Shown piece after piece: positions 9,001 to 54,100 of a DNA stretch of 64,000 bases. Position 1 is the first letter of the stretch. The number at the start of each line of letters is the position of its first letter. Source of the stretch: Branchiostoma floridae. Taxonomy: Eukaryota; Chordata; Leptocardii; Amphioxiformes; Branchiostomatidae. The stretch lies in assembly GCF_000003815.2 (NCBI RefSeq), contig NC_049985.1:7748066-7812065 (forward strand), read 5' to 3'. The notes under the pieces are model-generated. The model was not told where the DNA came from and did no database searches. It worked only from the letters and a program-made list of their open reading frames with translations. The translations under genes and the position numbers were made by a program.

Positions 9001-12000
9001 CTGATATACATCTATGTAACAACAACAAAAACCATGATCGTAATTTCAGGTTGTCAGCATAGCCATGAGCAAATGTGAAATGTGTAGTCCATTCCTGTAT
9101 ATTGTTTTGTATTGCATTCTTTTCTCTAAGGACCAAGGCAGCACTTACAAGGTATACATGATACAGTTGTATTTAGAAGTAGGAAGATTATTCTTCAAGC
9201 TTTGGTTTTGTGAACAGTTACTTATATATGTGAGATGGCAAAATGATCACTGCTCAATAGATATTTTAAAGTATTTTGGTGCATATATAGTAAATCGCAA
9301 AATGTTGGCCATCACATATGAGCACACCACAAACATGTGTTTAGCCTTCTGTTATGCACTCCCCCTTCCCCTTGCACAAAGGCCTTCTTCTACCCCACTG
9401 CAAAATGAAGTACTTGTAAACATAATGACTTGATAGTTACTGAAGTACACGTAGTAGTATCCAGTATTTGATTATGCTGGGTGGGTTCCTGACACGGGTT
9501 GTCAACAGTCAAATAGTCCTCTTTCCGTGCTAATGCTCCATCTGTATCTGTATCTATATAGCCAGTATAACCGGCCTTCAGAGTAACGCACCAGCTTTGC
9601 AGGCATGCGGCACAGCAGCAGCTGGTCATATGACACTGAACGACCTGTCACACCTAACCACACTTTGATGTCCTTCCTGACACACTCCAACCAAGATTTC
9701 CCAAGTCCTTTGTTGCCTGGTAACTGCAATTTGGTGATAGAATTTCCAGTTTCCATTTTCCGTCACCAACACTACAGTAATTGTCTTTTCTCTGTCTGTG
9801 TTAGGTACAAGCTGGACCCCACGGTCAATGCTGTTGTCGTGTCGGAACACATGACAGCAGAGGCCCCCCGTAATGTGATGACGGACGCGGCACTGAAGCT
9901 GTACGAAGACCAGCTGATGGAGCAGGCCAGGATACAGAGTCAGCAGGAGGCAGCTGCACAGGTATTGTTTTTACGCTTGTTCATTTTTCTACTATACATG
10001 TATATGTAGAAGGGGGTGATCAATAAGTTATTGATCACCCCTCGTATATGTATGTGGTCACAATATCAGTTAATTAGCCATGTGCCTAGTGTCCACATTG
10101 TATTGTACTTGTTGCAATTTGGATAAAGTCAAAGCTGCACACTTAGGTAAGGTTAGGCGGTGTGGTGGTGTCAACATTCACACTTTTTGTTTTTCATGAT
10201 GAAAACTGTTGCGTGATCAACTCTGATAATCGACACTTGTTACTCCTTTGTATCTTGATATACAGGCCCAGGCTAGCTCCCGTCCTGCTGTAGTTGTGGT
10301 TGACCGGAATACAGAGGCCTTCCAGGAGACTGAGGAGCCAGACTATGAAGACTTCAGGACGGAGGCTACCATACATTACAAACAGCGGCAGGAGTGCTTC
10401 CAGAAGGCTGCAACAGCCTATCAGAAGGGGCAAAAGGAACTGGCTTTCTACTATGCTCAGCAGGTAGGGTTAGAACATTATTGTGGTTTTTCCATTGTAG
10501 AATATAAGAAAGGGGCACTCAAGAGTGTGTTATCAGTAAGAAATACAGGCTTAAAGCAAGTAAGAAAAATCAAAATTGAAAAAAATAACACAAACATTCT
10601 TTAAACTCATCTGCAGAGACCTTGAAATAAAAAATAAACAACTGGAGGCTGCTGCCTTAACCCTTGTGACAGGGATCCCAGCAGCAGTATAATAAAAAAT
10701 GGATATGAGGACGACGAGGTGACTCGGAGTCCTTAAAAAGATTCTTCAATAATTGGGTAGAAAGTACTAAACATTGTATTTGGAAGTAGGATATGTCATG
10801 GAAAGAGCTATCTATATGGTATTGCACCATAATTGAGGCTAATTGTGGATCTAAATAAACTCAAACTCAATTAAGATCCACCTTTTCTCTCCCAACAGGG
10901 ACATTTGCACACAGACAAACTGAGGGAAGCAAACAGGAGAGCATCAGAGAAAATTCTGGAGCTCAAGTGAGTATCCATGGAGTTATACAGACTACAGTTG
11001 ACAGTGACATTCCTCCAGTTATAGCCTTGAATTCTCATGTAAAGCTATGCTGCTGACCTACAACATGTAGAAGTATTTGAGTGATGGCCAATTTTTTTAG
11101 CCAAGCATGTTTTCAAAGGTCCTGTAATGTTTATGTGTGTGAAGATGAATCTGGCTGATTTAAAACAAAACTGGCGAATTTGTTGAATTATTTTAGATCG
11201 TTAATATTATAATGTTTTCCAGAGTTGCTTCTTTGTTACTGTGTAATTGAATGTTGAACTATGCTCTGTCCTGTAGGAATGCTGGGTTGGACCAGCTGAA
11301 CTGTCTGGACCTACACGGACTGCACGTCAATGAGGCCATCGATGCTCTAAAAAGTGTCTTGAAAGAAAAAGAGAGAGGTAATACAGCTGAGTAGCATCTT
11401 ATAATAGGCTTGTTCACAGTTTCAAGTGCAACTAAGCAAAGGTCAAAGATAAAACCACTTACTAATCAACGGTCTTTACTTGTTTTGCTACAGCTGTATA
11501 GATCACGTTTATGTCTTAGGTTAGGTTTTCAAGCCATTTGGCAACTTTGAAGTCTGATGATCCTCTCATGATCAACAAATACAGCCAATGCTTGTCTACT
11601 GTGTGGCAGAGTTATAACCTTGTTGGGACCACAGAAACAGCATTTGATAACAGTTACTACACTATGCCAACAGGAATAAACAACATGATATTGAATATTC
11701 CTTTAAAATATCCCCTCAGAGCTTCACCATGCCAGCACCAGTCGACACCCTGTGGCCAACTACATCTGTGTCATCACCGGGCGGGGCAATAACAGCCGTG
11801 GAGGGGTTGCTAGGCTCAAACCTGCTGTGCTGAACTATCTCCACACCAATGACTACAGGTACGACATTGCCACACCTTTATAGTACCGTCTAACCTGTAC
11901 AAGTGACCAACTCCATATAAGGATCATCTGTTACATTAGGCACATAATCAATGGAGTATTGTTTTTGGCCTTTTTGTGTTGTGTGTGTAAATTTTGTTGA

Positions 12001-15099: not shown

Positions 15100-15204
15100 G
15101 GGGAATTCCAGAAGTGAGCATTACTCATCGGTTTCACAATAGAAACTAGTCTGTCAAAAGGGGAATTCCAGAAGTGAGCATTACTCTTCGGTTTCGCAAT
15201 AAAG
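15100..15204 (+). repeat. 60-bp tandem duplication just upstream of the 15237 gene
   Basis: GGGGAATTCCAGAAGTGAGC followed by ATTACTC-TCGGTTTC-CAATA occurs at 15100-15145 and again at 15160-15204, with only a few differences. It ends 33 bp before the ATG. It is probably a duplicated promoter or 5' UTR segment. Confidence 0.9.
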
Positions 15205-15236
15205 GTACACTACGACAGTTTCTCTCGTCAGAAATA

Positions 15237-16844
15237 ATGGCTACCAGCAGCTCTCGATGTTTCCGATGTAGACAGTGTTTGTCCTGTACGTACTTCACTT
15301 GCTTTGGCGAACCACCGGTTCCCTCCCGGAGGCTGTCGTGCCGTGGAGGCGGCGGGTACTCGATCACCACCTGTTCGTGCCGATGTGAGGAGGAAGTTAC
15401 GTGTACCTGTAAATGCAATGTCGGAAAGGCACACGATGTCCTACAGAAGGTTGCCTCTATCGCCGGGGGTGCTGTTCTTGTTGTTGGTGGCGCTGCCCTG
15501 GCTGTGGGGTCCGGCGGGGTAGCGTGCCCTATACTAGGAGGCATGATAGGAGGTGCTGGACTGAGCTCGACCATCCATGGTGCAGTTAAAGCGGGGAAAG
15601 GGGAGAAAATTAGCGCAAGTGAGTATTTTGTGGACGTCGGTGTCGGCTTTGTAACCGGTGCGGTGGGGAGCGGAGGGGCGGTTGCAACGGAGAAGCTAGC
15701 CGAGAATTTGGCGACTACTGCGGCGAAAGAGCTTTCAGAAAAAGCGCTCGTTAAAGGAGGTACCAACTTTGCAGCTCGCCTTGTAACCGATGCGGTGGAA
15801 CTGGGCGCAGGGACGGTTGTAAGGAAGAATGCTGCACAGAAATTGGCGACCACTGTGGCGAAAAAAGTCACAGAAGAAGCGGTCGTTAAAGGAGGTACCA
15901 AGTTCGCAGTCCATATGGCAGGAGGAGCGGCGTCGTCATTGGCTAGCACTGCGGTACAAGAAGCTGGGACGTGTGTAAAGGGGAAAAAAGACTGGGGAGA
16001 CTACGGAGACGACGATGCAATGTGGGGCAAAGCCGCTGCCTGGGGTGCAGTGGCAGGTTTCGGGTATCATGCCTGGTCTGAAGTCAAAGAGTTGCACGAG
16101 TTGGAAGAGGTGCAATACATCTTGAAAAATCAAGGTGGCTTGAGTGCACGTGATCATCCCCGATGGTCTGAAGTGTCGGAACAGATGAAAGACATCCTGA
16201 AAAATCAAGGTGGCTTGAGTGCACGTGATCATCCCCGATGGTCTCAAGTGCCGCAGCAGATGCAAGACATCTTGAGGAACAAGCAAGACGATGGGAATGA
16301 CGCGTACGGCCCTCACGTTGCATTAAGCGACCAGGACAAGAAACTTTGTACCAAACTGGTCAAAACGACGGGAAAGGCAGCAAGGGCGATACACAGCGAG
16401 TTAAGTGAGACTGATGAACGGACTGGCAATAATTCCATGAGTCACGCTCCTTATTATCGTTCGACCCCAACTGGAAGCCCCACTGCTGCCACGTTCAGCA
16501 CCCCTTCACAACACACACGCTTCATGACCAGTCAGCAACCGGGACCGTACAGTTTCCCGCCAAGCCAGCAGCTGGGACCATACAGTTTCCCGCCAAGCCA
16601 GCAGCTGGAACCATGCAGTTTCCCTCGAAGCCAGCAGCTGGGACCGTGTAGTAGCCCGCGAAGCCAGCAGCTGGGACCATACAATTTCCCGCCAAGCCAG
16701 CAACCGGGACCACCGTCGGGAGTATCCCGCCAAGCCAGCAGCTGGGACCATACAATTTCCCGCCAAGCCAGCAGCTGGAACCACGGAGTATCCCACCAAG
16801 CCAGCAGCTGGGACCATACAGTTTCCCGCCAAGCCAGCAGCTAG
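15237..16844 (+). CDS. Unrecognised Cys-rich, glycine-zipper, tandem-repeat protein (intronless)
   Basis: I do not recognise this protein. The frame is open from 15174, but the first ATG, in the good context AATAATGGCT, is at 15237 and gives 535 residues. Visible parts: a Cys-rich head (residues 1-70, with CxxC and CxC pairs including CSCRC and CTCKC); a hydrophobic Gly/Ala segment VLVVGGAALAVGSGG followed by GGMIGGAG (about 78-110), which looks like a membrane-active glycine zipper; a second Gly-rich segment, GVGFVTGAVGSGGA; two diverged copies of a KLATT-AK-VKGGT unit; two and a third copies of a 25-residue repeat with GGLSARDHPRW; and a C-terminal 11-residue repeat SQQLGPYSFPP. In that last array a 38-nt unit shifts the frame, and the ORF ends at a TAG, while the original repeat frame stays open to 17038. 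The lack of introns contrasts with the neighbouring genes and may indicate retroposition or a young gene. Confidence 0.75.
   Translation: MATSSSRCFRCRQCLSCTYFTCFGEPPVPSRRLSCRGGGGYSITTCSCRCEEEVTCTCKCNVGKAHDVLQKVASIAGGAVLVVGGAALAVGSGGVACPILGGMIGGAGLSSTIHGAVKAGKGEKISASEYFVDVGVGFVTGAVGSGGAVATEKLAENLATTAAKELSEKALVKGGTNFAARLVTDAVELGAGTVVRKNAAQKLATTVAKKVTEEAVVKGGTKFAVHMAGGAASSLASTAVQEAGTCVKGKKDWGDYGDDDAMWGKAAAWGAVAGFGYHAWSEVKELHELEEVQYILKNQGGLSARDHPRWSEVSEQMKDILKNQGGLSARDHPRWSQVPQQMQDILRNKQDDGNDAYGPHVALSDQDKKLCTKLVKTTGKAARAIHSELSETDERTGNNSMSHAPYYRSTPTGSPTAATFSTPSQHTRFMTSQQPGPYSFPPSQQLGPYSFPPSQQLEPCSFPRSQQLGPCSSPRSQQLGPYNFPPSQQPGPPSGVSRQASSWDHTISRQASSWNHGVSHQASSWDHTVSRQASS
16117..16280 (+). repeat. 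75-nt coding tandem repeat
   Basis: About 2.2 units of 25 codons encode ILKNQGGLSARDHPRWS plus a variable tail. The central part of the two complete units is nearly identical at the DNA level, which implies a recent duplication or conversion. Confidence 0.9.
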
Positions 16845-16990
16845 AACCATGCAGTTTCCCGCGAAGCCAGCAGCTGGGACCGTGTAGTAGCCCGCGAAGC
16901 CAGCAGCTGGGTACATGCAGTTTCCCGCCAAGCCAGCAGCTGGGACCATACAGTTTCCCGCCAAGCCAGCAGCTGGAACCATGGAGTAGC
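16530..16990 (+). repeat. 33-nt coding minisatellite, 14 units, with one 38-nt unit
   Basis: The units begin with AGCCAGCAGCTGGGACCA (SQQLGP). Starts fall at 16530, 16563, 16596, 16629, 16662, 16695, 16733, 16766, 16799, 16832, 16865, 16898, 16931 and 16964. The unit at 16695-16732 is 38 nt long and shifts the reading frame by +2. Downstream of it both the shifted frame (to TAG at 16842) and the original repeat frame (to TAA at 17036) are open for some distance. Confidence 0.95.
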
Positions 16991-18495: not shown

Positions 18496-18795
18496 TGTCT
18501 GGACTGGCAGTCACGAATGCTGGTGCTTACACATCAAGTGTGTGGGAAGCGTTTGTCTTGGGATCGAAACTGGCCAGAGTTCAATATATGCAGCGGTGGA
18601 TTCTAGATCATTCTGTTTCGTTGCGATGCTGAATCAGGGGAAGACCCGTCGTCATACTGACGCTTTAAGGGTTGTGGGGGTTTGATGTTGTTATTTAAAG
18701 TCCCACGGTTTTAAGATTTAAAGGAGAGTGCAACAGTGTGTGTGTCGATTGCTCAGAGAATCATGGATGGCATTTTGAAGCAATCCTTGGAGGAC

Positions 18796-18798
<3 letters not shown>

Positions 18799-18831
<33 letters not shown>
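18799..18831 (-). repeat. Poly(A) tail of the LINE (poly-T on plus)
   Basis: A run of about 33 T immediately follows the left target duplication. A second T/A-rich block (18838-18860) belongs to the LINE 3' UTR. The tract may be unreliable in length. Confidence 0.85.
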
Positions 18832-21800
18832 CCCAGGGTTTTTTTAGAAAAAAAAAAAATACTTTTGCCACCAACAAATTTTCAAACCTCCTTTTGTCCT
18901 GGGGGAATTTTAAAGTCCTGGGAAAATCCACAATAGGTAATGCGCATGGAAGAAGTATCATTGTCTATATAAGAATTTCTCTCATGTACTTATACAGGCT
19001 ATTATGTATAACCAATATACACCACATGGTTGCCACAATTGTCATGGAATAATTATGATACATGTAGATGGTTATCAAAAACAACAAGTAACTTTTAACA
19101 TTCGGGACTTTTTCTTTCATAACAATGTATAGTTTACAGTATGTTATAACACAGTAGATCTAGACTGGACTAGAACTATAGTTTACATACTATGGGTTTA
19201 ACAGTTGTTGTTGCTTTTTATGAGCTTAAAAATTATTATTTAAGTACATAGAAGTAAACATTACAGAACATGAAGTCTGTTTTTGAGTTCACAATTGAAG
19301 ATGTTAGATAAGTTATGGCCTGAAATTGGCCGTGGGCACTTTCTAGAAAAAATCCATGTTTTAAAGATAACCCACTTTGCTATAGATATTATTCGTATTC
19401 TTTTCTTCAGGATATTTTCGTTTATTGGCTGGTTTACCTTTCCCAGTATCATCTCTTCAAAATCAATATAAGGGTTACTGGGGCTAAATGGTACAGAAGT
19501 ATGTACTAAATTCCACAGGTTAGTTAGCCTTTTACATTCCAGGAACATATGTTTATAGTTGTCAACATGACCACTGTCACATAATTTACATACAGGATCA
19601 ATTACTTGACCATCTTCATCTTGTATTCTCCATTTGCTTAATTTCTCACCACATGGTAAAATTTGATGAAGTAGTTTGTAATTAAGCTCTGCTATTTGTG
19701 TTTCTTTACATGAAGTTGTGCCTAGCATTTTCCAAATCTTCTTCCAATTAAGTGAGTATATATCAAAATGTGTCTGCCATTTCTGTTGGCAGTTTGGAAC
19801 TATAAATATTTGTAACATAAGGTTTTGGTATATCACAGAAGTTTTTGGAAAATCTAAGGCTGGTGTTTCTAACGTTTCTCTTTCGATACAACAATTTTTA
19901 CGTATGGCTCTTTTTACAATGAGCAATTCACACATCCAGTTATGTTTCTTGGTAAGTTTTCGGAATACCTCTCTGTCACTTATAAAAGTACCATTTTGTA
20001 AAATATCCTGTATATAAACAAAACCAGAGTTAATCCAATGTGGGTACAAGAGTGTTTTCCCCCCTGATACAATATGCTTGTTTCCCCAGATAATCTGGTT
20101 TGTGTCACAATTGCTTTTAGCTTTGTACCATGCATAGATAACTTGCTTATAAAAGAGGGGTACATTACACAGGTATTTGTCTTCAATGCAACTCATTTGA
20201 AACACAAAATTCAAGTCTATATCTAAGGAAGATAAGTAGTGTAAAGGGATATATCTCCAAGAACCTTTACCATTAAGTAAACGTTTAACCCAAGACGCCA
20301 AGAGAGCATCTTTCACACTATGTATGTCTAGCATTTTTAAACCTCCCTGTTCATAGTTGCCAATGAGAGTTTTCCGTTTAATTTTGTCCTTTTTTCCACT
20401 CCACACAAAGTTAAAAAAGGCAGTATTTAGCTCCTTTAACACTATTGTTGGTGTTGGAAGAATGTTCATTACATATGTTACCTTTGCAGCTGCCAATGCC
20501 TTTACAATGGTTATTTTCCCAAATAAAGTAAGATTCCTTTGGCACCATGTATTGAGAACTGTTTTAACTTGTTTTACCTTGTCATCCCAGTTTAATTTCA
20601 TTAGTTGTTCCTTGCTATGACCAAAATTTACACCAAGTGACTTAATTACAGAAGGCCATTGGATACCTGCTATTTCATCTTTTCTGTGTTTCCATATACC
20701 TAGCCACAGTCCTTTTGTTTTAGCTTTGTTTAAGTTGGGTCCAGCCACATTAGAGAATGAGCTAAGGCACTCAAGTGTTTCATACAGTGAGTCTTCAGTG
20801 GACAAGAAAACAGTGGTATCATCTGCCACCTGGCACATCTTAATTTCTGCTTCGTCTACTGTGACACCTTTGATATTTTGGTTATTTTGTATGCTATAAA
20901 ATAGGATCTCTGCTACAAGAAGAAACAGTAGCGCACTTAATGGGCATCCTTGTCTTATACCCCGCTGCAGTTGTATACTAGCGGCTTTCCAGCCATTGTT
21001 GATGACTGAGGCCAGACAGTCAGAATACATGATCTTTACCCAGTTTACAAAAATTTGGGCCAAAGTTAAATTTCTCTAATACCTTAAACATAAAATTGTG
21101 CTCCACACAATCAAATGCTTTCTCAAAATCTATGAATAGTACAATACCTGTCTTATTTTTGGAGTCACAGAAGTCAATTATATCTTGAATTAATCTAACA
21201 TTTTGTCCTATGAAACGTCCTTTTATGTAAGCACACTGGTCCTTATTTATTAGATCTTTCAGGAGAGGTTTAATTCTATTTGCCATGACAAAAGCAAGTA
21301 TCTTATAATCGGTATTTAAGAGGCTTATAGGTCTCCAATTGCTAAGTGATTCCATGTCTCCATTTTTGTGTATCAATCTTAGTAGGGCCTTTCTGAAGGA
21401 GGGTGGTAGTTTTCCTTCACTGAGTGCATTGCAAATAACAGAGTGCACTAAAACTCCAATTGAAGGCCAGAACAGTTTGTAAAATTCAGGTGAAAGCCCA
21501 TCAGGGCCAGGTGTTTTACCTTGTTTCATGCTTGTTACAGCTTCTTCACACTCATGTAATGTGATTGGTTTGTCACACTCCTGCTTTTCTTGTTCAGATA
21601 GTATGTTTGGAATATTCATAGATCCCAGGAAGTCTTCAATTTTGTCTTCGGGTACCTTTTTAGAGGAGTATAGAGTTTGATAAAAGCTTCTACACTCTTT
21701 TAATATCTCTGCTTGGTCATGTATTTTTTCATTGTCTCTCACTAGCGAGGTTATACAATTTTGACTTTGCTTCTTGTTTTCTAAGCTCAAAAAGTACTTG

Positions 21801-22482
21801 GATGGTCTTTCACCTTCTGCAATATATCTTGCTTTTGCTCTGATTTGTTGACCTTTGGCCTTTTCTAGGAGAATACTCTCCAGCTGCGTCTTAACACATT
21901 CATATTCAGCAAGAGTTTGAGGATTTAAATCCTTATCTATTTTCTCTTGTAGAGTTTCCAATTTATTTGTTGTTTCTTTTTCTAAGGTGTTTCTCTCTTT
22001 AGTTTTAAACTTTGACCATGCTATAGACAGCTCTTTGATCTTCATTTTGCATATTTCCCATATAAGTTCTGGTTTACACTGTTTGAATTCTATTTTGGTA
22101 TCTTCTATAAGCCTTTCTATTTCGTGTTTATAGTTTGGATCGTTTAAAAGATTAACATTTAGTTTCCAGAATCCATTTCCTCTTGGTGTTTCCTTAACAT
22201 GCATATCTATAAACACAGCATTGTGATCACTGCAAATACTGGCATAATGGCCAGCTTCCATAACATCAGTCAAGGTGTTTTCAACCAACCAGTAATCTAG
22301 CCTTCGTGCAGTTGTTTTTCTTCTCCAAGTGAAACTTTTCAGTGTGGGATGCATGTGCCGAAATATATCTTGTAGGTTGAAATGGGCACAAAGGTCCCTT
22401 ACGGCCTGATTTTTGTCAATTGTCGCCAGGGACCCACCAAGAAGGTCCATATTTTGGTCAAGTATGGAGTTGAAATCACCGG
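18799..22482 (-). mobile_element. 5'-truncated Tx1/L1-like LINE inserted in the TRIM gene
   Basis: The minus strand encodes the end of an apurinic-type endonuclease (GDFN at the very 5' junction, RRLDYWL, SDHNAV) and a reverse transcriptase (ADDTTVF catalytic box, GIRQGCPLS, IDFEKAFD). A C-terminal region ends at 19261. Two reading frames (22528-21020, whose first codons are flanking TRIM sequence, and 21063-19261) overlap, so one frameshift lies near 21050 in a short A/T run. The 3' end is marked by about 33 T on the plus strand at 18799, i.e. a poly(A) tail. The flanks GGAGGACGAG(TTT) at 18789-18798 and 22483-22495 are a target-site duplication. The 5' truncation falls within the endonuclease domain. 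The clade call is from motif style only. Confidence 0.9.
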
Positions 22483-23788
22483 GGAGGACGAGTTTCTTGT
22501 GTGCCGTGTGTGTTTGAGCAGTTTTCACAGGCCAAAGTCCCTGCCGTGTCTACACACCTTCTGTGAGCGATGTGTGTCTGTCCTGCACGATCAACAGAGG
22601 CCTTTACGGTGCCCGATATGTCGCCAAGCACACTACCTTCCTTCGGAGGGAGTTTCTGGTCTCCCGGACAACTTTTTCATTGCTAGCTTGGCAGAGAGGC
22701 TAGATACATCAACACCGCGGCGTCTGGGCAATGTAGGATGCGAAACTCACCCCGACCAGAACTTGCTATTCTTCTGCAAAGAGGACGCTTGCCGCAAACC
22801 GGTCTGTACCCAGTGTCTTCTGCAACATCACAGTGATCACAGAATCACACCCTTACGGAGAGAAGATCATCAACGGACTTCAGAGGGCATAACAAGGAGC
22901 GTCAGTCCCGTAAGCACCGAGACGGAAGAAGACGAAGAAAGAAACAGTGAGTGGGTAACCAACTGCCAAGTCAGAGTATTGCTCCGTATTGAAGAAAATG
23001 GCGAGGGTGAAGGTCTGATATTATAACCTCTCGACCTTGTGTTTGATGATGTCAGCGGTCGGCTGTACGTCTGCGACGCCGTCAGCGAGGGCGTATTGAC
23101 GTTCGACCGCCAAGGTGTGCTCCTGTCGTCATGGAGTACCAAGACTTCGGAGTCGACGTCAACGCCTTCGGGAATCGCCCTCAATGTAAGGAGCGGTCAC
23201 ATGTACGTGGTTGACAGTTCTGACGCTGTGGTCAAAGTGTACGATAGAGCAGGTGCCCTACTCAGTACCTTTGGACAGGGCTTCTTCGAAAAACCGTGGG
23301 GTCTTGCACTGAGCACACAGGGAGAAGGACGAATTGCGGTGACGGACATCGGCCAGCACCGAGTATCGGTCCACAGACTGGGCGGGTCCGTTGTTTGGAC
23401 CTTCGGGACCAAGGGTAAGGGCGACTCAAACCTCCAGTACCCGCACAGGGCGGACTTTCTCCCAGACGGACAGCTTGTGGTGACAGACTATATGAACCAC
23501 TGCGTCAAGTTTATTTCAAATGACGGTGCATACTTAGGAAAACTTCAAACGGGGGACACAAAGAGACAGTCAGGGCCCATAGGGGTAACTACACTCCACG
23601 ATACTCAGCTTGTTGTTATAGCAGATGATAGCAACAAGCAGGTGCAGGTATACGATAGTGAAAGTGGGCGGATCCGAAGCGTGATTGACAGCGATGACCT
23701 GAGTATGCTCAAGTCGGTCCGCAGTAGAGGCAGCCGGCAGTTTGCTGTGATTAATGGTTGCGAAATAACTCTGTATGAAATGATTTGA

Positions 23789-28372: not shown

Positions 28373-29190
28373 TTAATGCTTTATAATAACTGCTCCCTGG
28401 TCCAGGTTCAATGTCAAGTGGTCTATACAATTTCATTTTGGGATTCAGAAAAATATTACTAGCAGAACTGGAACACTCTACTCTGGTGTACAGTATGGCT
28501 TTTAAGGTCACGCTTTTTCCTGACATCATGATCAACAAAGCTTTTTGTTTTAAATTCATCTACACTACTTAAGCTTCCTTTTTGTCTCTTTCGTTGTTAC
28601 TCATAGACTTGATAAACTCAATAACCGTACAATGATTTTTCAAGACAAACTTTTTTTTTAAGTATGACTGTTCAATTTACTTGCAAAACACGTCGGTAGC
28701 CTTACGTAAGTGGACACAAGTTGCATATGAGCTCTACATTTATATAATCTATGATGGTTTCTTCAGGCTTCATGTGACAAGTGACATTGTTACTGTTGGT
28801 GTGAGGCAGTAAAAAAATAAGGTAAGCAGGTGTTTTGTTGATGCGATAATGATTTTTTATAGATTACAAATGATCTTTTATTTCTTAGTCTACGACAGAG
28901 GTTTCCTGGCACACAGTGTGCCTCAAAACAGTTGCTTACTTAGCTAGCTATAGGGCACAAGTTTCATGCCAGAAAAGCCTTGCTATCATCAACATGTTTC
29001 TGTCAATATGTGAAATGGATTCTTTACAAAAATGTGTTCATGACCGATGCAGTTCCAGGCTATTGAGCCATTTGCTATTTGGTTAAGTATATGCAAGGAC
29101 GTTATATGTTTCCAATTCTAGCATGAAAAATTAAGCAACCATGTATTAAACCTGGGGAGCTGGCTAACATTATTTTGCTTTTTTTTCAGC

Positions 29191-32160
29191 ATGGCTACAG
29201 ATAACATTTGTGAAATATACTGGTACAAGAATGGGCAAGGCAAAGATGTATGCTCTCTTGACTATTCATCAAAGCTGCTGCAGTCCAAAAAATTTGAACG
29301 CCCTCCGGGAATTCATCCTGAAGCTATTACCCGCATAAATCTGGAAAAAAATGAGTTAAAAACTATTCCAGCCGAAATCTTTGACATGCCAAATTTGGAA
29401 GAGTTGGATCTCAGGCACAATTTCCTAACTGAGCTGCCAACAGAAATCAGCAAGTTGCACAAGCTTAAAAAGCTCTGGGTGGCAATGAATTACATCAGAA
29501 AATTGCCAGACACCATATGTCAGATGGAAAATTTGGAGAGTCTGCATCTCGGTTCAAATGAGCTCAGAAACCTCCCCAAGAAATTTGGCAACTTGGCAAA
29601 TTTGAAGGAGCTCTGGGTCAATGATAACTATTTTGCCAGCTTTCCTCGTCAGATCACAGTAATGAAAACAATTACAAAACTTGATTGTCATGGTAACCAA
29701 ATGAAAACGATGCCCAAAGCAATTGGCAACTTGTCAAATCTGACTTCTTTGGACATGCACAAGAACAGATTAATCTCATTCCCAAGAGCTGTTGTTTCAA
29801 TGTTAAAGTCTAAATTGAAGCACTTTGTCTATCATGCAAATAGGATTGCAAGTCACCCCCATGGGTTTGATAAAGTTATGTCTAAAATGAATGACAGTCC
29901 TCCCAAAGACAAGAAGCATAAATCTCTGCAAAAGCAAACCAAGGGGAAGAGCAAGAAGTCTGCTTCAACCACGGAGGCAGCAAAGGTGAAAGGAGACAAT
30001 GTTGTTGATGCAAAAGCAACAGAACAAGCAGGTAAGATGGAAGTTAAAACGTTTCAACATATATGTTCTGAATGGAAATGTTATGCATAACATGAAATCT
30101 AATGTCCAGTTGCTTCTTGAATGAGATGTCATTGCTGAGGTATGACAAGAGGCAAGTTGTACATAAGTAATATTGTGCTATTGAGGATGTCAATAATACG
30201 CGCTACTGTTTGAAACTGGCATATTGATATCCTTTCTGGAAATGATTGACACTAAGATGGACATATCTTTGCAACAGAGACATCATTGCCAGAGTCATCA
30301 CAACGGCATGCTGCAGTGAGTTTGCCACTTTTTTGTTCTATTTAATTTTGCATTAATTGATAAGCACAATCATCTTTTCAAGTCAATTTTATCAGGCACT
30401 GCCAGCAACTTGAGGTTATAATACTTTCGCTCAATATTGTTCCTGTTAAGGTATCTCGGTTGGCTAAATTGGCATTTTGACCTTCCACTGTTTTCTTATT
30501 AATGAATTAAGAAAGAATGGAGCCATAACGAATGTTGATAGATGGGCATTAAAGAATTCTAAATCTGCTTTTTTGGGGGCCAAATTGATGACGTCATCAT
30601 TTTTATTACCTCTGATATTATTTTTTTCTATGACAAAATACAGCACTTTGGTACATCCACCAGTAAGGAAATTTGTTTTTTGTTGGATAATGAGGGAAGC
30701 TCCAAACGTAGTGTGGCCCAATCTGATATCTTACTGTTACTAACGATCTGTAGTTATTAGGAATGGAATTTTTTTAATTGGATGAAAACAAACATTTTCT
30801 AAAAATCCCCCCAAAATCAGATTTAGAATTCTCTAATGCCCATCTATCAATATTCGTCACGGCTCCATTCTTTCTTAATTCATTATTAAGAAAACAGTGG
30901 AAGGTCAAAATACCAATTTAGCCAACCGAGATTACCTTAAACAACACTCACTATGGGCTTCTTCTATGGGCTTCAACATTGCAGATTAAATCAATGATTT
31001 CTGAGGCACAAAGGAATTGAATTGATGGCATCTTTCTTTTTCAGCATCAGACACCAGAAACTATGCAACTGATTGCAGCAACAGGCCAAGTAATGCAGGA
31101 TGTTGGAGGACAAGAAATCAACTTGAGCATCCAAGTTTCTGTTGATGTCAATGTAGGAAACAATAATGGCCATGGTAAGAACATTTAGTTTTGATTTACT
31201 GGTTATAACGATGACGAATGAAAAACCAATGAAGCATACTTCCTTTAACCTTTATGTACTCTTAGAAAATAACTTCATGTGTATATATATGTTCTCAGAA
31301 TTATTCCGGTTGCTTGTGTCTGCTATATGCAATGACATTATCTCTTTCTATGACCATAATCAGACAATATGTCCTTCCCTTATCATGTGTGTTGGTATCC
31401 CATTCTTGTGAAATATAATCATGATTGGCTGTGTGAAGTTATAAACAACAGTCATTTACAAATAGGCTTGATGTACAATATGATGTAGTCTATGTTGTAA
31501 CTGTAATGTTTTTAGCTTCAGGTGCAAGCAATACAGATCCCCAGGCCCTCAAAGATAAAAAGACCATGGCCACAAAGGGTCCACTTAGAGGTAAAGTTAT
31601 AACAAAGTTAAGAGTATTCAATTCCATGTAGCTACTAACCTACCAATCTGCTTTTGCTTTAAGCTAACATCATACTAGGTATTAGAGCATTCTAATGAGA
31701 AGCTAACTCTGGAGATGCTGAAGTTAATTGTGTTGCTGCTCTTTGCCCTTTACATTTGTATTACAGTCGTGTCAAGAAAAAAAAACACTTCAATTTGTAT
31801 ACCATTTATTTACACAATGAAAAGACAAACACAGAGAAACTAATGTCTGCCTTGGCTTTCACTACAGACTTCATTCAACATGTCACAGATACAGCGTGTT
31901 CAGTCTGGAGAGACCTTGCTCATCGACTAGGGGTGGAGAATAATGAGATAAACCGAATACACAAGGAGAACCTGGGACAGATGAAAGAATGCTGCATAGA
32001 GGTCCTCAATTTGTGGAGAGAGGAAAAGGGAAAAGATGCAACTGTTGAAGTACTCAAGAAGGCCTTGTATGAAGCTAAACGCAAGGATGTCGTGGACGAA
32101 TTTGAAGGCATGACTCCTTTCCAAACTCTGGTGTGCTGGGTAAAAACAACGATTGGGTAG
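29191..32160 (+). CDS. Leucine-rich repeat and death-domain protein
   Basis: Five coding exons join in phase: 29191-30031, 30278-30315, 31045-31174, 31516-31590, 31835-32160, giving 469 residues. The ATG follows an acceptor at 29189, so a 5' noncoding exon is expected upstream (an exon ending at 28821 before GTAAGC is possible). Residues 45-215 hold about seven 23-residue LRRs of the SHOC2/PIDD style (LKTIPAEI, LTELPTEI, IRKLPDTI). A Lys-rich linker follows. The last exon is a death domain near residues 370-450, with SVWRDLAHRLGV and a terminal LKKAL helix. Family knowledge: LRR-death proteins act as adaptors in apoptosis and innate signalling, and the family is large in amphioxus. I chose the acceptor at 31834 because the alternative at 31766 is out of phase with the previous exon. 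No ZU5 domain is visible, unlike PIDD. Confidence 0.85.
30450..30936. mobile_element. piggyBac-like MITE with TTAA duplication
   Basis: Inverted arms of about 118 bp (30450-30567 and 30818-30936) start with GGTATCTCGGTTGGCTAAAT and differ at only a few positions. Both ends are flanked by TTAA (30446-30449, 30937-30940), the diagnostic piggyBac target. It is in an intron of the LRR gene and has no coding capacity. Confidence 0.85.
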
Positions 32161-39166: not shown

Positions 39167-42100
39167 ATGTTTGGTCAGCAGAAGACTCCCTTTGGGGGAA
39201 CCACTGGTTTCGGTATGTCCATGACTGACTATATTTGTTAGGAAATGGAATGTTTGCATCGAACAGATCTAGACTAACAGCTCCAATGTGACTATTGGAA
39301 TAGCTGTGCTTGTCTTATTGAATGTATGCTAAAAATGTGCTGCTATACAGAGAACCTAGTGGTTTGATGAATCTTGAAAGTTAGGAATTATGAATGTATG
39401 TTACAAGTCATAGTCTTCCTAGGCATGTGGCATACTACTATGATAGTGTTCATTGAATTTGAACTAGCATTGAGACTGAATTTATTTGCAGGATCAAACT
39501 GAGTTTCTCTCAAGTATATTGACACTCTCCCTGCTAACTAACTGCATCCATGACATGGATTGTTACATGGCAGAAAGAAGGTTGATTTATATGAGGTACT
39601 TTTGATTCCAGCAAGCAATAACTTGGTCACTGTTGCTGTTCTTAACTTAAAAACTCAGATTAGAAAACAGAAATATTTTACGTTATTGCATAGCCCCTCT
39701 TTGTTTTCTACCGGTATGTTGCATCAAAAAGCCTTTCAAAAACAGTCTAAAAGTGTGATTTAAATTGTGTTAGTCAGAGAATGCGTTATACGTTTTTATT
39801 GGCATGTTGTTATGTTGGTTGCATTGGGACACGTTGCATGTCTGTGTGATGTACGTGTATGAAACAGTACCCACCACGGTGTTCATGTTTGCTTGCTGGA
39901 CAGAAGTGACCCGTTTCTCCGCATGTTTAGGCACAACTACAAAACCTTTTGGTGCTGCTAAAACTGCAGGCACAGGTGCTTTTGGCACCAGTAGCTTCGG
40001 GGCCACCCAGACCCCTGCCACCGGAGGGCTGTTTGGCGGCACAGCGACGAACACCGGGACGGGGCTCTTCGGAGGCACCAGCTTCGGCACACCGTCCACG
40101 TCAACGTCCACCTTTGGAGGGTTTGGCACGAGCACCACGCAGACGGGAGGGGGGCTGTTTGGTACCTCCACAAGTACAGCAGGGACAGGACTGTTCGCGA
40201 CGCCACAGCAGCAGACGGCACCGTTTGGGGCTGCGAACAAGACAGGATTTGGAGGTCTGCATCACAGATGATCTGTTAATGGAATTTTAGTCTTTTGACA
40301 ATGCTGAACATCTAGAACAACATACACATTTTTATTACCACAGTTTGACCAACAACAGATCTCAGCCAGTTTAGAATAGTGAAAACATGTGTCGTTGTAT
40401 CACTAATTATAGCTTACTCTTCAAGCAGAGGTTTCAGTCGGGTTATTTTGTTGTGCTTTTTCTTGCCTTGTTTACGAATCTATGTTTTATAAGTAGTGCC
40501 TACGATTTATTTCAGTTTCCTCCTCCTAGAAATCACAGCAACTACCATAGAAATAGAAAACCAAAGAAATGGCAAAAAAATTAGAATAATCCTCGGCTGA
40601 AACATCTGCTTGGAGAGTAATCATATGTACTTCCCATATATATTTTTCATTGGACTATTCCATTGTGTATTTGTAGGGTTTGGAACCCAGACGTCCACAG
40701 CTGCCACAGGTACAGGGTTGTTTGGAGCCACCCAGCAGACACCAAGTCTATTTGGAGGGGGACAGACCACCAGTACAGGGCTGTTTGGTGCAGGTAAGAA
40801 CATGTACAAATGTGTAACAGACATGGTCATCGGCTCAGTAGGGCTGAGTATCGGTACAGCGGACCGGTACAAAACCGTTTTTTTCTTATTGGACCGGTCC
40901 AGAAAAACCGGACCTGAAAAAATTAGGTGGACCAGATGTTGGACTGATTAGAAAATTAACAGATTATTTTATCAGGCATCCACATGTTTTGGCGCTTGCA
41001 GGTGGAAGAAAATAACAAGAGTGAAGTAGAGTAGAGTTTATAGTAATTTCTACCAAGTTTTACAGCCAATCATACAGGTGCAGTTAGCGTTGTAGGGTTT
41101 TAAAACGCCAGTGTAAGTCTAATACTAGTACTCCACCAAAAAGATTTCTTTGTAGTGAAATGGACCATTGGTATAACTTAAGTCATACTGAATCAGGTCC
41201 TGAACCGGACTTGGACCTGAATTTTCTGTACTGGTACCCACCCCTAGTCATCAGTATTGATCCTGTAGAAGGGGATGTGGTTGTTGATCTGTGTATACCT
41301 TTGTGGTGGAAGAAAGTTTAGCTTTGTACTATGATTACTACCAACACAGATGAGCTTCCATGATATATGTACCAGACTTGTAACAAAATGTTTTTGCCCT
41401 GTATATCATGTGAATGTTTTTCCTACTGCTAGTTGGGGGGTTGCAAAAGGAAAATTGCCTTAATTTCATGAGATGTATTGTGTTGTTTGTACTGTATTTC
41501 AGTCAATACAAGGGGTAGCAATACTTTTCATGCAGACTTTGGCCAGGGAACAGTAAAAAAAGGGAGCGTCTTCATATAAAATTCAATATTACATTTTCTT
41601 GCCAGTTCTAATGTTATGCAGTATCTGACAGGAAATTGAACAAGTGTGATTTTTATTTCAGTTGGAGGCATTGCAGCTGGAACAAATGGGACAACTGTGA
41701 AGTTCAATGTGAGTAGAACATGTTTATGTGTACTTAGCTGTTTGGGCACTCATGCAGAAGAATTGGGATCTCCAGAAAATATCATCCAGAAGATCAAGCT
41801 TCTCTGGTCTTAATAGTATATAAGAAAGCACTGTAAATTCAATTACTTGTGTGTTTGTTTTATTTTGCTTTAGGAGCAAAAAAAGAGGTTTTCATTCTGT
41901 TTTATATTTTTGGTTGAAACAATTCCCTAGTAGTAGTACAGTAGTAATACATGTACATTGCATTGGAAAAGAAATATTTGCAGTGTCAGATTTATTGTGA
42001 GCTGTGTACAGGTAATGACTGCCACATTGTTCCTGTATGTCCGCAGCCTGTGTCTGGTAGTGACACCATGATGAAGAATGGAGTCTCCCAGAACATTCGT

Positions 42101-48100: not shown

Positions 48101-51100
48101 GGCTATCCTTATGCTTGTTTCAGACTGCAAGTGAACTTGATGCAGGGCTTGGAGAGGAGGATGACTTACTCGCCCCTCCTGCCTACCCTTCTGACACATT
48201 CCTAGTGGAGGACAAAAGAACAAGGTAGGATAGATCACTATTCTGTCTTTTGATAATCATGATATAATATTGATGCAGTTGTTCGAGCGATATTTTTTAC
48301 GTCTGGTACTGTCCCAAGTCTCCGTTGCTAGTTACCTCTGTGAAGACAAGGGTATTGTTTTCGGTTTGTTATTTGTTCGTCATAATGTGTGTGCAAGTTT
48401 GTCCCCGCTGGCCTGGATCTAAGGTTGTCCTGGTGAAAATGGTGTAACTGGAATTAGCGGAAACTTGCAGGATGAGAAGGCTGGTTTGGGCCCTGACCCA
48501 GAGTCCTGCAAGAAGGGAGAAAAATACTTAGACTGAATTTCACAATAACAAATAAGAGATGAAATTCACAGCAAATCAAAATATTACACACAGGCATGAG
48601 ACGTTTGATTTGTTTTTTTATTTTGATTTCTATGATGATTGATTGATGTTATCCACCCTGACAGTGAGAGTGAGAAGGAGAATGACCCTATGGAGAACCT
48701 TTACTCCAACCCTGTCAGGAAACCCATCCCTGAAACACCTGCAAACAAGTGGGTCTCTCTTCTATCCCCTATTCATCTAAATCATCTTGAGCTTCTACTT
48801 TTGTCATGCTATTTCCACCCATGTATGAGCTGCTTTTTTGTATATATGTGCTGTCTTTTCATTGTGCTTTGCTTAGAAATGTACTAAAGAATGGACAATC
48901 CCAGTTGAATAGCACTGCATATTATACTGCTGTTACTACTAACATTCCTGTATCTAGGTAAAATATACTTCCAGCATGTTCTCAGCTCATTATGCTTACA
49001 CACTATACAGATATTCTTGGCATTTTTAATACTTTAAATATTACAAGAAGAAATGATGCACACTTATATAGAAGATTGTTTCTGAATTGCCAGGTCCTCC
49101 CCTGCTCCCGATGACAGCATCATAGCTCTGAACCTGCGACAGAGGAGCTGCAGTCCCGGCCAGGACAGCATGGGGGAGCCGACAAACGATGACCAGGGGG
49201 AGGTCGAGGATGAGGTGGAGAGAGAACCACACCCTGCTGGTAGGGGACATATGCACAACCTAGTTTTGTGATAAGGCCTAGGAAAAAAAATGTTGTGTTT
49301 CCTGTTTCAGTCCTGAAAAAATTAGGGTCGGTAGGTAGGGATTATCTTTTTTTTTTTTCTTGTATTTTTTTTTAGGCTGGCCAAAACTCTAGTGATACAT
49401 ATTACAATACCATATTACAATACAGTTGAACAAAGTAAACTGAAATGCATGATGACACTTATCTTTCAATCTCAAACTTTTGTGCATGATAGATACATTT
49501 ATCCTTCATTAGATGGGACAAGCAGTGTTTTACTTCAATAGGAAGCAGGCTGAATAAAAATTCTAACTGGAAGCTATGTGACTCCACTGCCCACCCAAAA
49601 AAAAGTCTAGGGTCGGCAGGTTTTTTTAGGGTAGGTAGGGAAACAGGAAACACAACATTTTTTTTCCTAGGCCTAAGCAGAAACAGTGACTTCTAGAAAA
49701 ACAGATGTAAAATTGAACTTTTTTTCTTTGGTTAAGCCACACCATTATAATTCTTCGTTCTAGCACATATTTCTGTAGGGCATCCTGAAAACACAGGGCT
49801 AGGATAAAAGCTTGCATCTGACTATATTCTCCCCCTAAAACTTTGTGTGCAAAGGCACAGACTTTACCCTCAGAGTTTGTTTTCATATTCACATTCCAAT
49901 GTAGAACCAGGAATAAAATTGGTGTGGCCTTATAGTGATGGCTGTTATCTCACGTCCCACCTAGACGTAATATGTTGAAATTCATGGATTCTTTTTTTTT
50001 AACGAGTTTGCTCAGTTAAGTCCTGACCACTTCTATGCACTGAACTGCTTCCTCAATGCTCATCAACATATCAAGACCTGAAGGCCACTTGAAGGTTATG
50101 GATTGCATGAATAAGACTGGAGCAGCACCTCTCCTCCCTCGTTGAGAAACATCATGATGTAGACAAGCTCGACTAACTGAGAGTTTTATTTTCTTTCAGG
50201 CATTATCCTGACCAAGAATGAGTACTACACCGAGCCGTCCTTGGATGAGCTGGCCAACATGGTGGATGAGAATGGGGACTGCTGGGTGGAGAACTTTGTC
50301 ATCGGGAGAGAAGGCTACGGCTCCGTCTTCTTCCCTGGGCTCACCAACGTCGCCAACCTCAACCTGGATGAAACTGGTCAGTTCCATTTTTTATAAACTT
50401 TGTTAACACACCAGTGTACTATACTGCCAATGTATAATATAGTCAAATTTGCAGATGGATTGTACCTTTACTGAAGGTTAGACATCCAGGTGATATGGTA
50501 TGCCAAATAGAAATTACTCAAGCAACTGGTTATGATTTGGGAAATGACATTTCAGGTAGTGACTAAGAGCCACAGACGAAAGGTAGTGGATGCTGCCTGA
50601 AATATCTGACTGTTTCCAAAATCATATCCAGTTGCTACATATGTATATGACTGGTTTATTTCGAAAACAAAACTGACAGTAACATAGCAGCCACAAGGCT
50701 GAATTACGACATGTCATTACATCAATCATTAAAGTAGTTAAAATCGAATATCATGAGTCATTACAATAGTACAGCTCTTAAAAATCGTTGCAGACGAATT
50801 AAATCAGTATCGGGATAAAGCATATAAATTAGTATTTGCAGTAATATCAGCATATCCCTTTATCGGAAGGTAAACAAATATTTAAAATACACAATGACTT
50901 ACTATTTGATACAAAGCACAAACATACAGGTTACAATTACTTGTTCAAAAGACGGACCATGAAGGGTACAGCGCTGTTGCAATAGCGTTCAGTTCTACAG
51001 CGAGTAGTGTTCAGTTTGTGGGATGACCTTGTCTGTCTACCACTGATCTCACCTCTGGCTGGTGGCAGTAAGTGCAAGAAATGATCGGACTGACTGAGAG

Positions 51101-54100
51101 AGTTAGCAAAGTGTGTGATCAGTTCAAGACGTTGTGCTTGTAGCGAAGGTAGACCCAAGTCAGAACAGGCATCAGTGTAAGACGTGTATCTCTGTCCCAG
51201 TATTATGCGCACAGCTCTCCGTTGGACCTTCTCGACCCTGTCACTAAGTGCAGTGGTGAGCCCGGAGTGCCAAACGGGGGCACAATACTCCAGGACTGGT
51301 CGGATGTAAGTCACATACACTGTGACTAGGTCGCCGATGGACACGTTAAAGTGTTTCAGATTACGGAGGAGGTAAAGGCGTCGGCTAGATTTGTTACAAA
51401 TGTTGTCAACGTGAGAGTTCCAACGTAGGTCAGCCTGCAGAAACACGCCCAGGATCCTCATCACTGGCACCTGTTGTAGCTCAGTGTTGTCGATCATGAG
51501 AGATGGTGTTGGGTACGGGACCTTCCTGAAATGGATGTACATAACTTGACATTTCTTGGGATGCAACTTCATATGGCTGGTGCGAGACCAGTGGTCCAGG
51601 TCGTTCAAGTCCTGTTGCATATGAGACATACTTAGGTTGGGGGTTCTTATTTCCAAGAGATTCAGGTCGTCAACGAATTTCCAGCGTTTGGAGGCAGCCT
51701 GATGTGCGGCGCTGTTGATATACGCAAGGAAAATCAACGGCCCGAGTAGAGTGCCCTGGGGTAATCCGCAGGTAACCTTCAAGCTGTCGGAAAGTGTTCC
51801 ATGGTAGCGTACAACCTGGCTCCTGTTTGAGAGGAAGTCAACGATCCATTTTGTATTTGGCACACATCAGCAGCAACTTTATATATATTATATGTGATGA
51901 TATGTTTAGATATTCATTGCCTGTAGGAGTAAGAGGTAATATTATTTGCATTTATAATATTATATTGCTATTTATTACCTTGTTCCATAGTGCACATCAG
52001 AAGGAAGGAGATCACCGTGTACCCAGATGACTCCACTAAGCCCCCAGAGGGAGACGGCCTGAACAAGAAGGCAGAGGTCACCCTGCACTGTACCTGGCCC
52101 ATGGACAAGACAGCTCACATTCCCATCAAGGTTAGGACATGGCTTTTTACAGTAACATGCAAGTCAGGTAGTAAAATGTGCTTGCTCTGTGTTTTGGAGA
52201 TTCAAAAATTTTGTGGGTTCAAAAATTGGCAGGGTCATACCAAAGACTTTTGAAAGTGGTAAATGCTGCTTTCTCTTCTTAGCATTCAGCATGTAAGCAA
52301 TATTGAGATGAGCACTGTTCAATGTGAAATGCTTTTAGCTATTAGTAACTTAGATTTAATACAAGTCATATGAGCTACAACAGCCCAAAAGCAAGACCCT
52401 AACAACTTAATCACAAAGGCATCACATATTGTTAGGCTTAAGTTGGCTTTTTATATCTCCTTACCAATGAGATATGTTAAACGTGTGACTTTTATTTAAG
52501 ACGTCGTGAATGTGTTACCTCAGAGTCCGGATCGCCTGAAGAAGATGGGTTACCAGGAGAAGATCGAGGTGGCCACATCTAAGATTGGAGCAAGGTTCCT
52601 GGAGTACAGACCTGACACAGGGTCCTGGGTTTTCCAGGTAAGTTACAGCATTGTTTACTTTCACTAAAAAGACTGTGTTTTAGCCTTCCTAATCTTCTGT
52701 TTTTTTCTTGTTCATTTAAAGACAGGATACAAGTAATTGAAAAAATAACATCATTGATAGGAGTTTGTGTTTTTTGGGGGGGGGGGGGGGTTGCTAAGCC
52801 ATGAGAAAAAAGTCTTTAAGATAAGAGTAAGGCAGATAAAAGGTTAGATTTAAGGATTCTTTAGTAGTCTATATGATAATACAATACTCTTGCCACATCC
52901 TCCAGTAGGTGACAAACCTACCTGTCCCAGTATGAAGGTTATGTTATCTGATTCACTAATGCACACCTGTACACGTAGGTGCCTCACTTCTCCAAGTACG
53001 GCCTGGATGACAGTGAAGACGAGGAAGAGCTGGTTGGTCAGGAACAGAAGAAAATGAAGATGCAGCAACAAGCAGATCTTCAGGTGTGTAGATCTTCCGA
53101 CTCTTAAGCTAAATGCTGTATGCACACTATTCAAGTGCTGGTAGTAGTAATTTGGTAACAGTAATTGTATCACATAGTACTGGTACATGGTATGAGATAG
53201 TTAACTCAACAGTCTTCTTTTAAATGGTAAAAGAAAGCCAATGCATAGTTTTTTTACAGTGTGTAGTTGATGTAACAAGGTTATTTCACAGTAATGATGG
53301 CACATAGCAATTTTGAACATTTGCCAACTTGACCAGTAAATAAGATGTTACATTGCCATGAATGCAGAAACAGCAGCAGCAGAAAGAGAATCAGCCTCCC
53401 AGTTTGAATAAGCAGCAACCAATCACAGAGAGGGTGAAGTCTGAGCAGCCAATCATGGAGCAGATGCAGGATGACAGTGACATGGCTGACATCAGCCAGG
53501 AGCCAATCCCTGACCTGGCACCTAACAGCTCTGGTAGGAAGAATGGGCAGCAATACATGTACATGAAGGGGGGTGGGATTGGACTGAAACAACTTATTGG
53601 CAAAATGACATGAAATAGAAACTGTCCCAACAAACTTCCTTGTAACATACGTCTTATCAACAATGCTGTATCTATTTGTATTGTACATCTCACATGAAAT
53701 CTGTTCAGGGAATAATATAAATGTGTACTCTTATAATGATTGGTTTGATACAAAACTTGTATGTCATGCGCTTTTTCATAGCACTACAGTGTCAATAAGA
53801 CATGATGTTGTTAGTGAAATCAGGATTTGAAATACTCACCTACCACCTGTGATTTGCAGAAACATTTCCTAGATTTCTGGTAAAAGACTGAAAAGTTGCA
53901 ATTTTGTGGGATTAAGAATTTTAGATGTGGTATAACTATTAGATGTACAACCAAAAATCAAGTTGGTTAATAGTGTACAAAAGCTTGTTGTCTAGTAGGG
54001 CAGAAACAAGTGCTTCAGTATTTACAGAAACGTTTTGAAACTTAAAAATAGCAGTTCAGACAACCAACATTGCAGGTTATAGAAATAAGTATTTTGCAAG

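Follow-up and report, generated by a model that had tools for sequence, protein, structure and literature searches.

What has split the TRIM-NHL gene that begins at position 18763 of the Branchiostoma floridae DNA studied here, and when did it happen? The stretch, called the window below, is 64,000 nucleotides long. In it, the first 12 codons of the gene are separated from the RING/B-box part by a long interspersed nuclear element (LINE) of about 3.7 kb that lies antisense to the gene. Very probably, a LINE-1-like retrotransposon lacking long terminal repeats was inserted near the gene start by target-primed reverse transcription. We observe an exact duplication of the target site, element borders that other copies set independently, a reading phase that is kept across the insertion, low divergence from the other copies and, further downstream, an in-frame TAA. 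The features concerned are as follows.

18763 to 18798, plus strand: codons 1 to 12 of the TRIM-NHL gene, MDGILKQSLEDE, which keep the phase of the RING part (methionine spacing)
18789 to 18798, plus strand: left copy of the duplicated target, GGAGGACGAG, 10 bp long, or at most 13 when TTT is included
18799 to 18831, minus strand: poly(A) tail of the LINE, counted as 33 T on the plus strand
18799 to 22480, minus strand: 5'-truncated LINE-1-like element, comprising the 3' untranslated region and most of open reading frame 2 (ORF2), from an RVT_1 match, a LINE-1 ORF2p match and sibling alignments
22481 to 22482, no strand: two extra bases, GG, at the 5' junction of the LINE, from sibling comparison
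22483 to 22492, plus strand: right copy of the target-site duplication, GGAGGACGAG, an exact match
22484 to 23023, plus strand: RING/B-box part, with the RING at about 22502 to 22615 and the B-box at about 22739 to 22855 (Pfam)
23024 to 23026, plus strand: in-frame TAA where the NHL region begins, from frame reading and paralog alignment
23027 to 23788, plus strand: NHL part (Pfam), with its own end stop at 23786 to 23788

No third copy of GGAGGACGAG exists on either strand of the window. The duplication is 10 bases long, or 13 if TTT is counted, the left TTT being indistinguishable from the T run. Given the composition of the window, ten bases would agree exactly between two fixed ends with a probability of about 1.3e-6. 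A previous account made from the letters of the window, here called the sequence-only reading, had placed both copies correctly, the left one adjoining the T run.

The borders of the element were set independently of the duplication, because longer copies of the same LINE (siblings) diverge from the window at 22480. All genome searches were done on one assembly of 513,431,437 bases in 431 contigs. The sibling search used 500 bases of the 3' end of the element as query and scored 40 of 74 candidates, and its result, at least 42 genome matches, is thus a lower bound. We fetched 29 sibling loci and, for four of these, the 5' side as well. In all three longer copies the homology to the window stops at 22480, where their LINE sequence goes on for about 1.9 kb. 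Borders from the siblings and borders from the duplication agree within two bases. The GG at the junction is absent from the three compared siblings and from the target copy in the left flank. The sequence-only reading had given the inserted span as 18799 to 22482; this agrees with the limits of the duplication, but the LINE homology ends two bases earlier and the GG is extra. All four siblings for which both ends were available, out of the 29 loci fetched, have duplications, with lengths of 16, 13 and 16 bp by script and of 12 to 14 bp by eye in the fourth. Duplications of this kind, together with the 5' inversion of one sibling described below, are what target-primed reverse transcription leaves behind.

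We suggest the following course of events. The plus strand would have been nicked by the endonuclease, presumably after GGAGGACGAGTTT, and the poly(A) of the LINE would have primed at the nick. Reverse transcription would have halted inside the endonuclease coding region, leading to the 5' truncation. Two extra G would have been added at the 5' junction, and the target GGAGGACGAG(TTT) would have been duplicated.

The gene itself can be read across the element. When the flanks are joined, MDGILKQSLEDE is followed in phase by FLVCRVC from 22493, with RING and B-box intact, and the duplicated target corresponds to codons 9 to 13. The Pfam matches of the window gene are zf-RING_UBOX with 32 bits (cut-off 25.2), zf-B_box with 30.8 bits (cut-off 24.1) and NHL with 66.5 bits, the last in the same frame as the RING and B-box, with the TAA between. 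The closest solved relatives in the PDB are TRIM2 and TRIM3 for the RING/B-box part, and TRIM71, TRIM2 and Thin, as well as Brat, for the NHL part. The order RING, one B-box and NHL is the same in these TRIM-NHL ligases. The window gene differs from them in having about 56 residues from the B-box to the TAA or NHL start, with little room for a coiled coil, and in being interrupted twice, by the LINE and by the TAA. The sequence-only reading spoke of an immune-type E3 ligase; the sequence does not imply an immune role.

A search for TRIM paralogs scored 150 of 416 candidates and gave at least 151 RING/B-box matches in the genome, the window included. Fetched were 29 RING/B-box loci and nine NHL loci. 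No close paralog was found among these; identity over the match was 36 to 48% for RING/B-box (n=29) and 26 to 34% for NHL (n=9). The methionine of the joined frame lies 15 codons ahead of the first RING cysteine, and 28 of the 29 RING/B-box paralogs have a methionine 10 to 20 codons ahead of theirs, some of them several. The spacing is 17 codons in 19 of the 29 and 15 codons, as in the window, in five. Open frames of at least 599 codons are present in 20 of the 29 paralogs, which suits an intronless TRIM gene. The exact duplication, the sibling borders and the phase bear out the claim that a LINE insertion with a target-site duplication splits a RING/B-box/NHL gene after codon 12.

The inserted element resembles LINE-1 in several respects. 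RVT_1 is found on the minus strand of the window, split across two frames, and the 5' frame matches human LINE-1 ORF2p with a phmmer E value of 2e-46 over query residues 21 to 502 of 509. Among PDB entries, the scores are 161.8 bits for LINE-1 ORF2p, 139 for an entry named "RNA-directed DNA polymerase" and 50.2 for R2. In sibling L063, ORF2 encodes a full Exo_endo_phos domain (residues 10 to 230, 45.6 bits) followed by RVT_1 (106.4 bits). The window copy starts at the GDFN motif, residue 145 of this ORF2, and thus inside the endonuclease, as the sequence-only reading had it when it described an antisense element truncated there. One feature interrupts the ORF2 frame of the window copy.

21049 to 21053, minus strand: run of five A on the plus strand, one A more than in all four aligned siblings; the ORF2 frame shifts here

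Three siblings share about 5.5 kb, and two of them, L063 and L064, do so at 99.5% identity. In both, the open reading frames listed include an open ORF1 of 381 amino acids and an ORF2 that stays open as far as the fetched sequence reaches. This family is LINE-1-like and apparently was recently active. ORF1 of L063 gave no Pfam match at E 0.001; CCHC-like zinc-knuckle motifs were seen in it by eye, and mammalian L1 ORF1 is unlike it in this respect. The fourth sibling (loci L057/L065, contig C2, about 25538466 to 25541290) is rearranged and matches the window only to 21616. Its 5' part is inverted at the junction, a twin-priming pattern, and it ends in poly(A); the duplication measured by eye is that of this copy. 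Likeness to the L1 group (L1/Tx1-like) consists of an APE-type endonuclease followed by reverse transcriptase in ORF2 (in L063, the endonuclease of the window copy being truncated), the poly(A) tail, the 5' truncation, one 5' inversion, sibling duplications of 12 to 16 bp and best PDB matches to human LINE-1 ORF2p. A second LINE-like remnant lies elsewhere in the window, at 50937 to 51866 on the minus strand (RVT_1, 42 bits).

Before the element can be dated, a doubtful patch beside the T run has to be set aside.

18834 to 18930, no strand: probably corrupted part of the reference; at 28 positions it departs from the sibling majority, each time showing the base of the right-hand neighbour

In this patch, 28 of 97 columns differ from the majority of the 19 covering siblings, and in 28 of 28 the window base is the right-hand neighbour of the majority base; 73 columns could show such a change. 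Among the 19 siblings the number of mismatches there is 0 to 2 per copy, and the pattern was the same with 12 siblings. In a first count that also took in two bases bordering the T run, 29 of 30 were right-hand neighbours, where about 11 were expected and none of 10,000 random draws reached this number. The next 350 bases agree throughout with the majority of 12 siblings. The right-neighbour test speaks against an old or recombinant element as the source of the divergence beside the T run, and we rejected that reading; we know of no mutation process that explains the pattern. Judging from the pattern and from general knowledge, the patch is probably a mixture of reads that are one T shorter. 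The length of the T run is likewise uncertain, since the reads apparently slipped by one in the homopolymer. Such a patch would mislead the dating of repeats, as it holds 28 apparent differences in 97 bases against two private ones in the next 3,550.

With the patch excluded, substitutions between the window copy and 11 siblings (15 loci) amount to 0.11 to 0.42%. It should be noted that these siblings were picked as the closest and that the divergence script dropped stretches of less than 97% identity; other fetched siblings are more distant, with identity down to about 87 to 90%. Only two of 3,550 window bases are private, that is, common to no covering copy among the 11. They are located at 20266 (10 copies covering) and 21493 (four copies covering). 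The extra A in the run at 21049 to 21053 is a further private difference.

For B. floridae, PMC12862219 gives a mutation rate of 5.89e-9 per base per generation and an effective population size (Ne) of about 1.68 million, which it describes as unusually large; a different exponent is printed in one introductory sentence. The same paper names 35 resequenced individuals. At this rate, two private substitutions correspond to about 96,000 generations, with a Poisson range of 12,000 to 346,000. The point estimate of 96,000 should be read as a maximum, because the private bases may stem from a source copy outside the sample. The rates of 3e-9 to 1e-8 used in PMC7417228 give about 190,000 to 56,000 generations. 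At published B. floridae rates the insertion would thus be at most about 10^5 generations old. The ratio of age to 4Ne is about 0.014, or 0.05 at the upper Poisson bound. At some 1.4% of 4Ne, drift has hardly had time to fix the insertion and a segregating state is likely; the insertion is probably a segregating allele.

The LINE is not the only lesion. The TAA at 23024 parts 180 open codons on the RING side from 253 on the NHL side, and the NHL would be cut off even without the LINE, because this stop is in frame. All 38 fetched paralog loci were given to a test of the TAA column, and 20 of them yielded 21 alignments across it. In 15 of the 21, the conserved NHL proline after the column is kept, while the residue in the column varies and is never a stop. 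The six uninformative alignments comprise those of L008, L016, L019 and L023 and one of L030, which fall between B-box and NHL, and a poor one of L014. The 15 alignments that keep the proline behind a varying non-stop residue make it unlikely that an intron or the frame was misread here. Either this haplotype has a nonsense codon at 23024, then, or the TAA is a sequencing error. The probability that a nonsense change arose in the joined frame since the insertion is about 0.03 (0.004 to 0.10 over the Poisson range of ages). As this is only about 3%, the LINE more likely hit a copy that was already stopped, or the TAA is an error. The TAA is thus probably older than the LINE or independent of it.

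This bears on what the sequence-only reading had described as a ligase gene caught in the act of inactivation. The LINE does split the gene, but the second lesion probably predates it or is independent of it, and the description fits only in part. The sequence-only reading mentions neither the TAA nor the doubtful patch beside the T run. Similarly, the continuous in-phase TRIM start that it obtained by removing the insert holds for the RING, and the frame is continuous only up to the TAA.

Predicted from the frames, the filled haplotype would be unable to make a normal TRIM protein, and we infer a loss of function. Translation from 18763 enters the T run, gives 57 residues and ends at 18934, the exact end being uncertain as it crosses the doubtful patch. 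From 22484 to the TAA there is no in-frame ATG in the TRIM part. Another start is supplied by the LINE.

22382 to 22384, plus strand: LINE-derived ATG, a hypothetical chimeric start in phase with the RING, 214 amino acids to the TAA

In principle an isoform could start at 22382, but it would stop at the TAA and lack the NHL. Could the locus therefore make a chimeric RING/B-box protein of 214 amino acids from this new start? The frame is open from 22376 into the RING, and the TRIM part has no ATG of its own before the TAA; against this, the element is without its 5' region, and the frame is short and may be open by chance. We consider such a product very unlikely. Equally doubtful is the further idea that a LINE-TRIM chimera without NHL is kept in the population, where it could act as a dominant-negative ligase.

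Four points weigh against the reading of the locus as a young insertion into a TRIM gene. An ATG at such a spacing in an open frame is expected by chance in about one of six cases (an estimate), and the 12 codons alone are weak evidence. A joined frame open through the end of the NHL was not found, owing to the TAA. The age hinges on the mutation rate used. Finally, the empty allele was not seen: searches of the assembly for a second allele matched the left flank (18600 to 18800) once and the right part (22483 to 23788) once, each time the window itself. Such searches pass over very common words, but there was one candidate only per flank. The suggestion of the sequence-only reading that this is an insertion allele gains indirect support from the low divergence from siblings, but not the direct support of an empty site. 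According to PMC7269912, the chromosome-scale assembly of B. floridae was made from about tenfold Sanger reads of a single diploid animal, with both haplotypes merged into one reference, whereas an earlier Sanger assembly had kept the two haplotypes separate. If the assembly searched is that of Simakov et al. 2020 (PMC7269912), the absence of the other allele is uninformative, because the haplotypes were merged.

The same absence is what speaks for an insertion that is fixed in the species, with the gene lost there, as the filled site alone was found. A merged reference of one animal would hide the other allele, again if the assembly is that of PMC7269912, and the age is small against 4Ne even at its upper Poisson bound; we regard fixation as improbable. 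Even less credible is an assembly chimera, in which the LINE was joined to the TRIM locus by mistake. Young repeats are prone to misjoins and the probably corrupt 97-base patch lies at the T run, but a misjoin is not expected to yield a duplication exactly at the element ends with the phase kept, and each flank has a single match. There is about an even chance, on the other hand, that the TAA had made the TRIM copy a pseudogene or truncated allele beforehand and that the insertion is neutral debris, which is compatible with a young LINE insertion. The TAA is in phase, and the small probability of a nonsense change after the insertion fits this order of events. The pieces of 180 and 253 codons are nevertheless open and retain Pfam domains, so that any earlier loss would also be recent; a sequencing error or a polymorphism of its own could account for the TAA, and a shorter RING/B-box product may be functional.

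Some further observations were made in the window. A 33-bp minisatellite of 13.6 copies is found at 16533 to 16987, partly inside a long open frame at 15150 to 16844 on the plus strand. The repeat is free of stops in further frames too, as well as on the opposite strand, and the long frame has no Pfam match. Pieces of host genes at 29122 to 30090, 31699 to 32160, 39774 to 40271 and 10230 to 10604 encode leucine-rich repeats, a Death domain, nucleoporin FG repeats (below the Pfam cut-off) and a DUF1771 match. Neither an Rfam nor a tRNA scan of the window produced a match, and a limited literature search found no paper on the TRIM/LINE locus.

Gene-disrupting LINE insertions with target-site duplications are known for human L1. 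The case described here is like them in anatomy and mechanism, and the animal and the target gene alone differ. We thus regard it as ordinary biology: a young LINE copy that entered coding sequence in the textbook manner, is probably still polymorphic and sits in a gene copy with a further, probably older, stop codon. Its value lies in being a clean, datable young LINE copy within the coding sequence of a member of the large TRIM family. The site is open to direct genotyping, which would bear on whether such insertions segregate in a species with a large effective population size.

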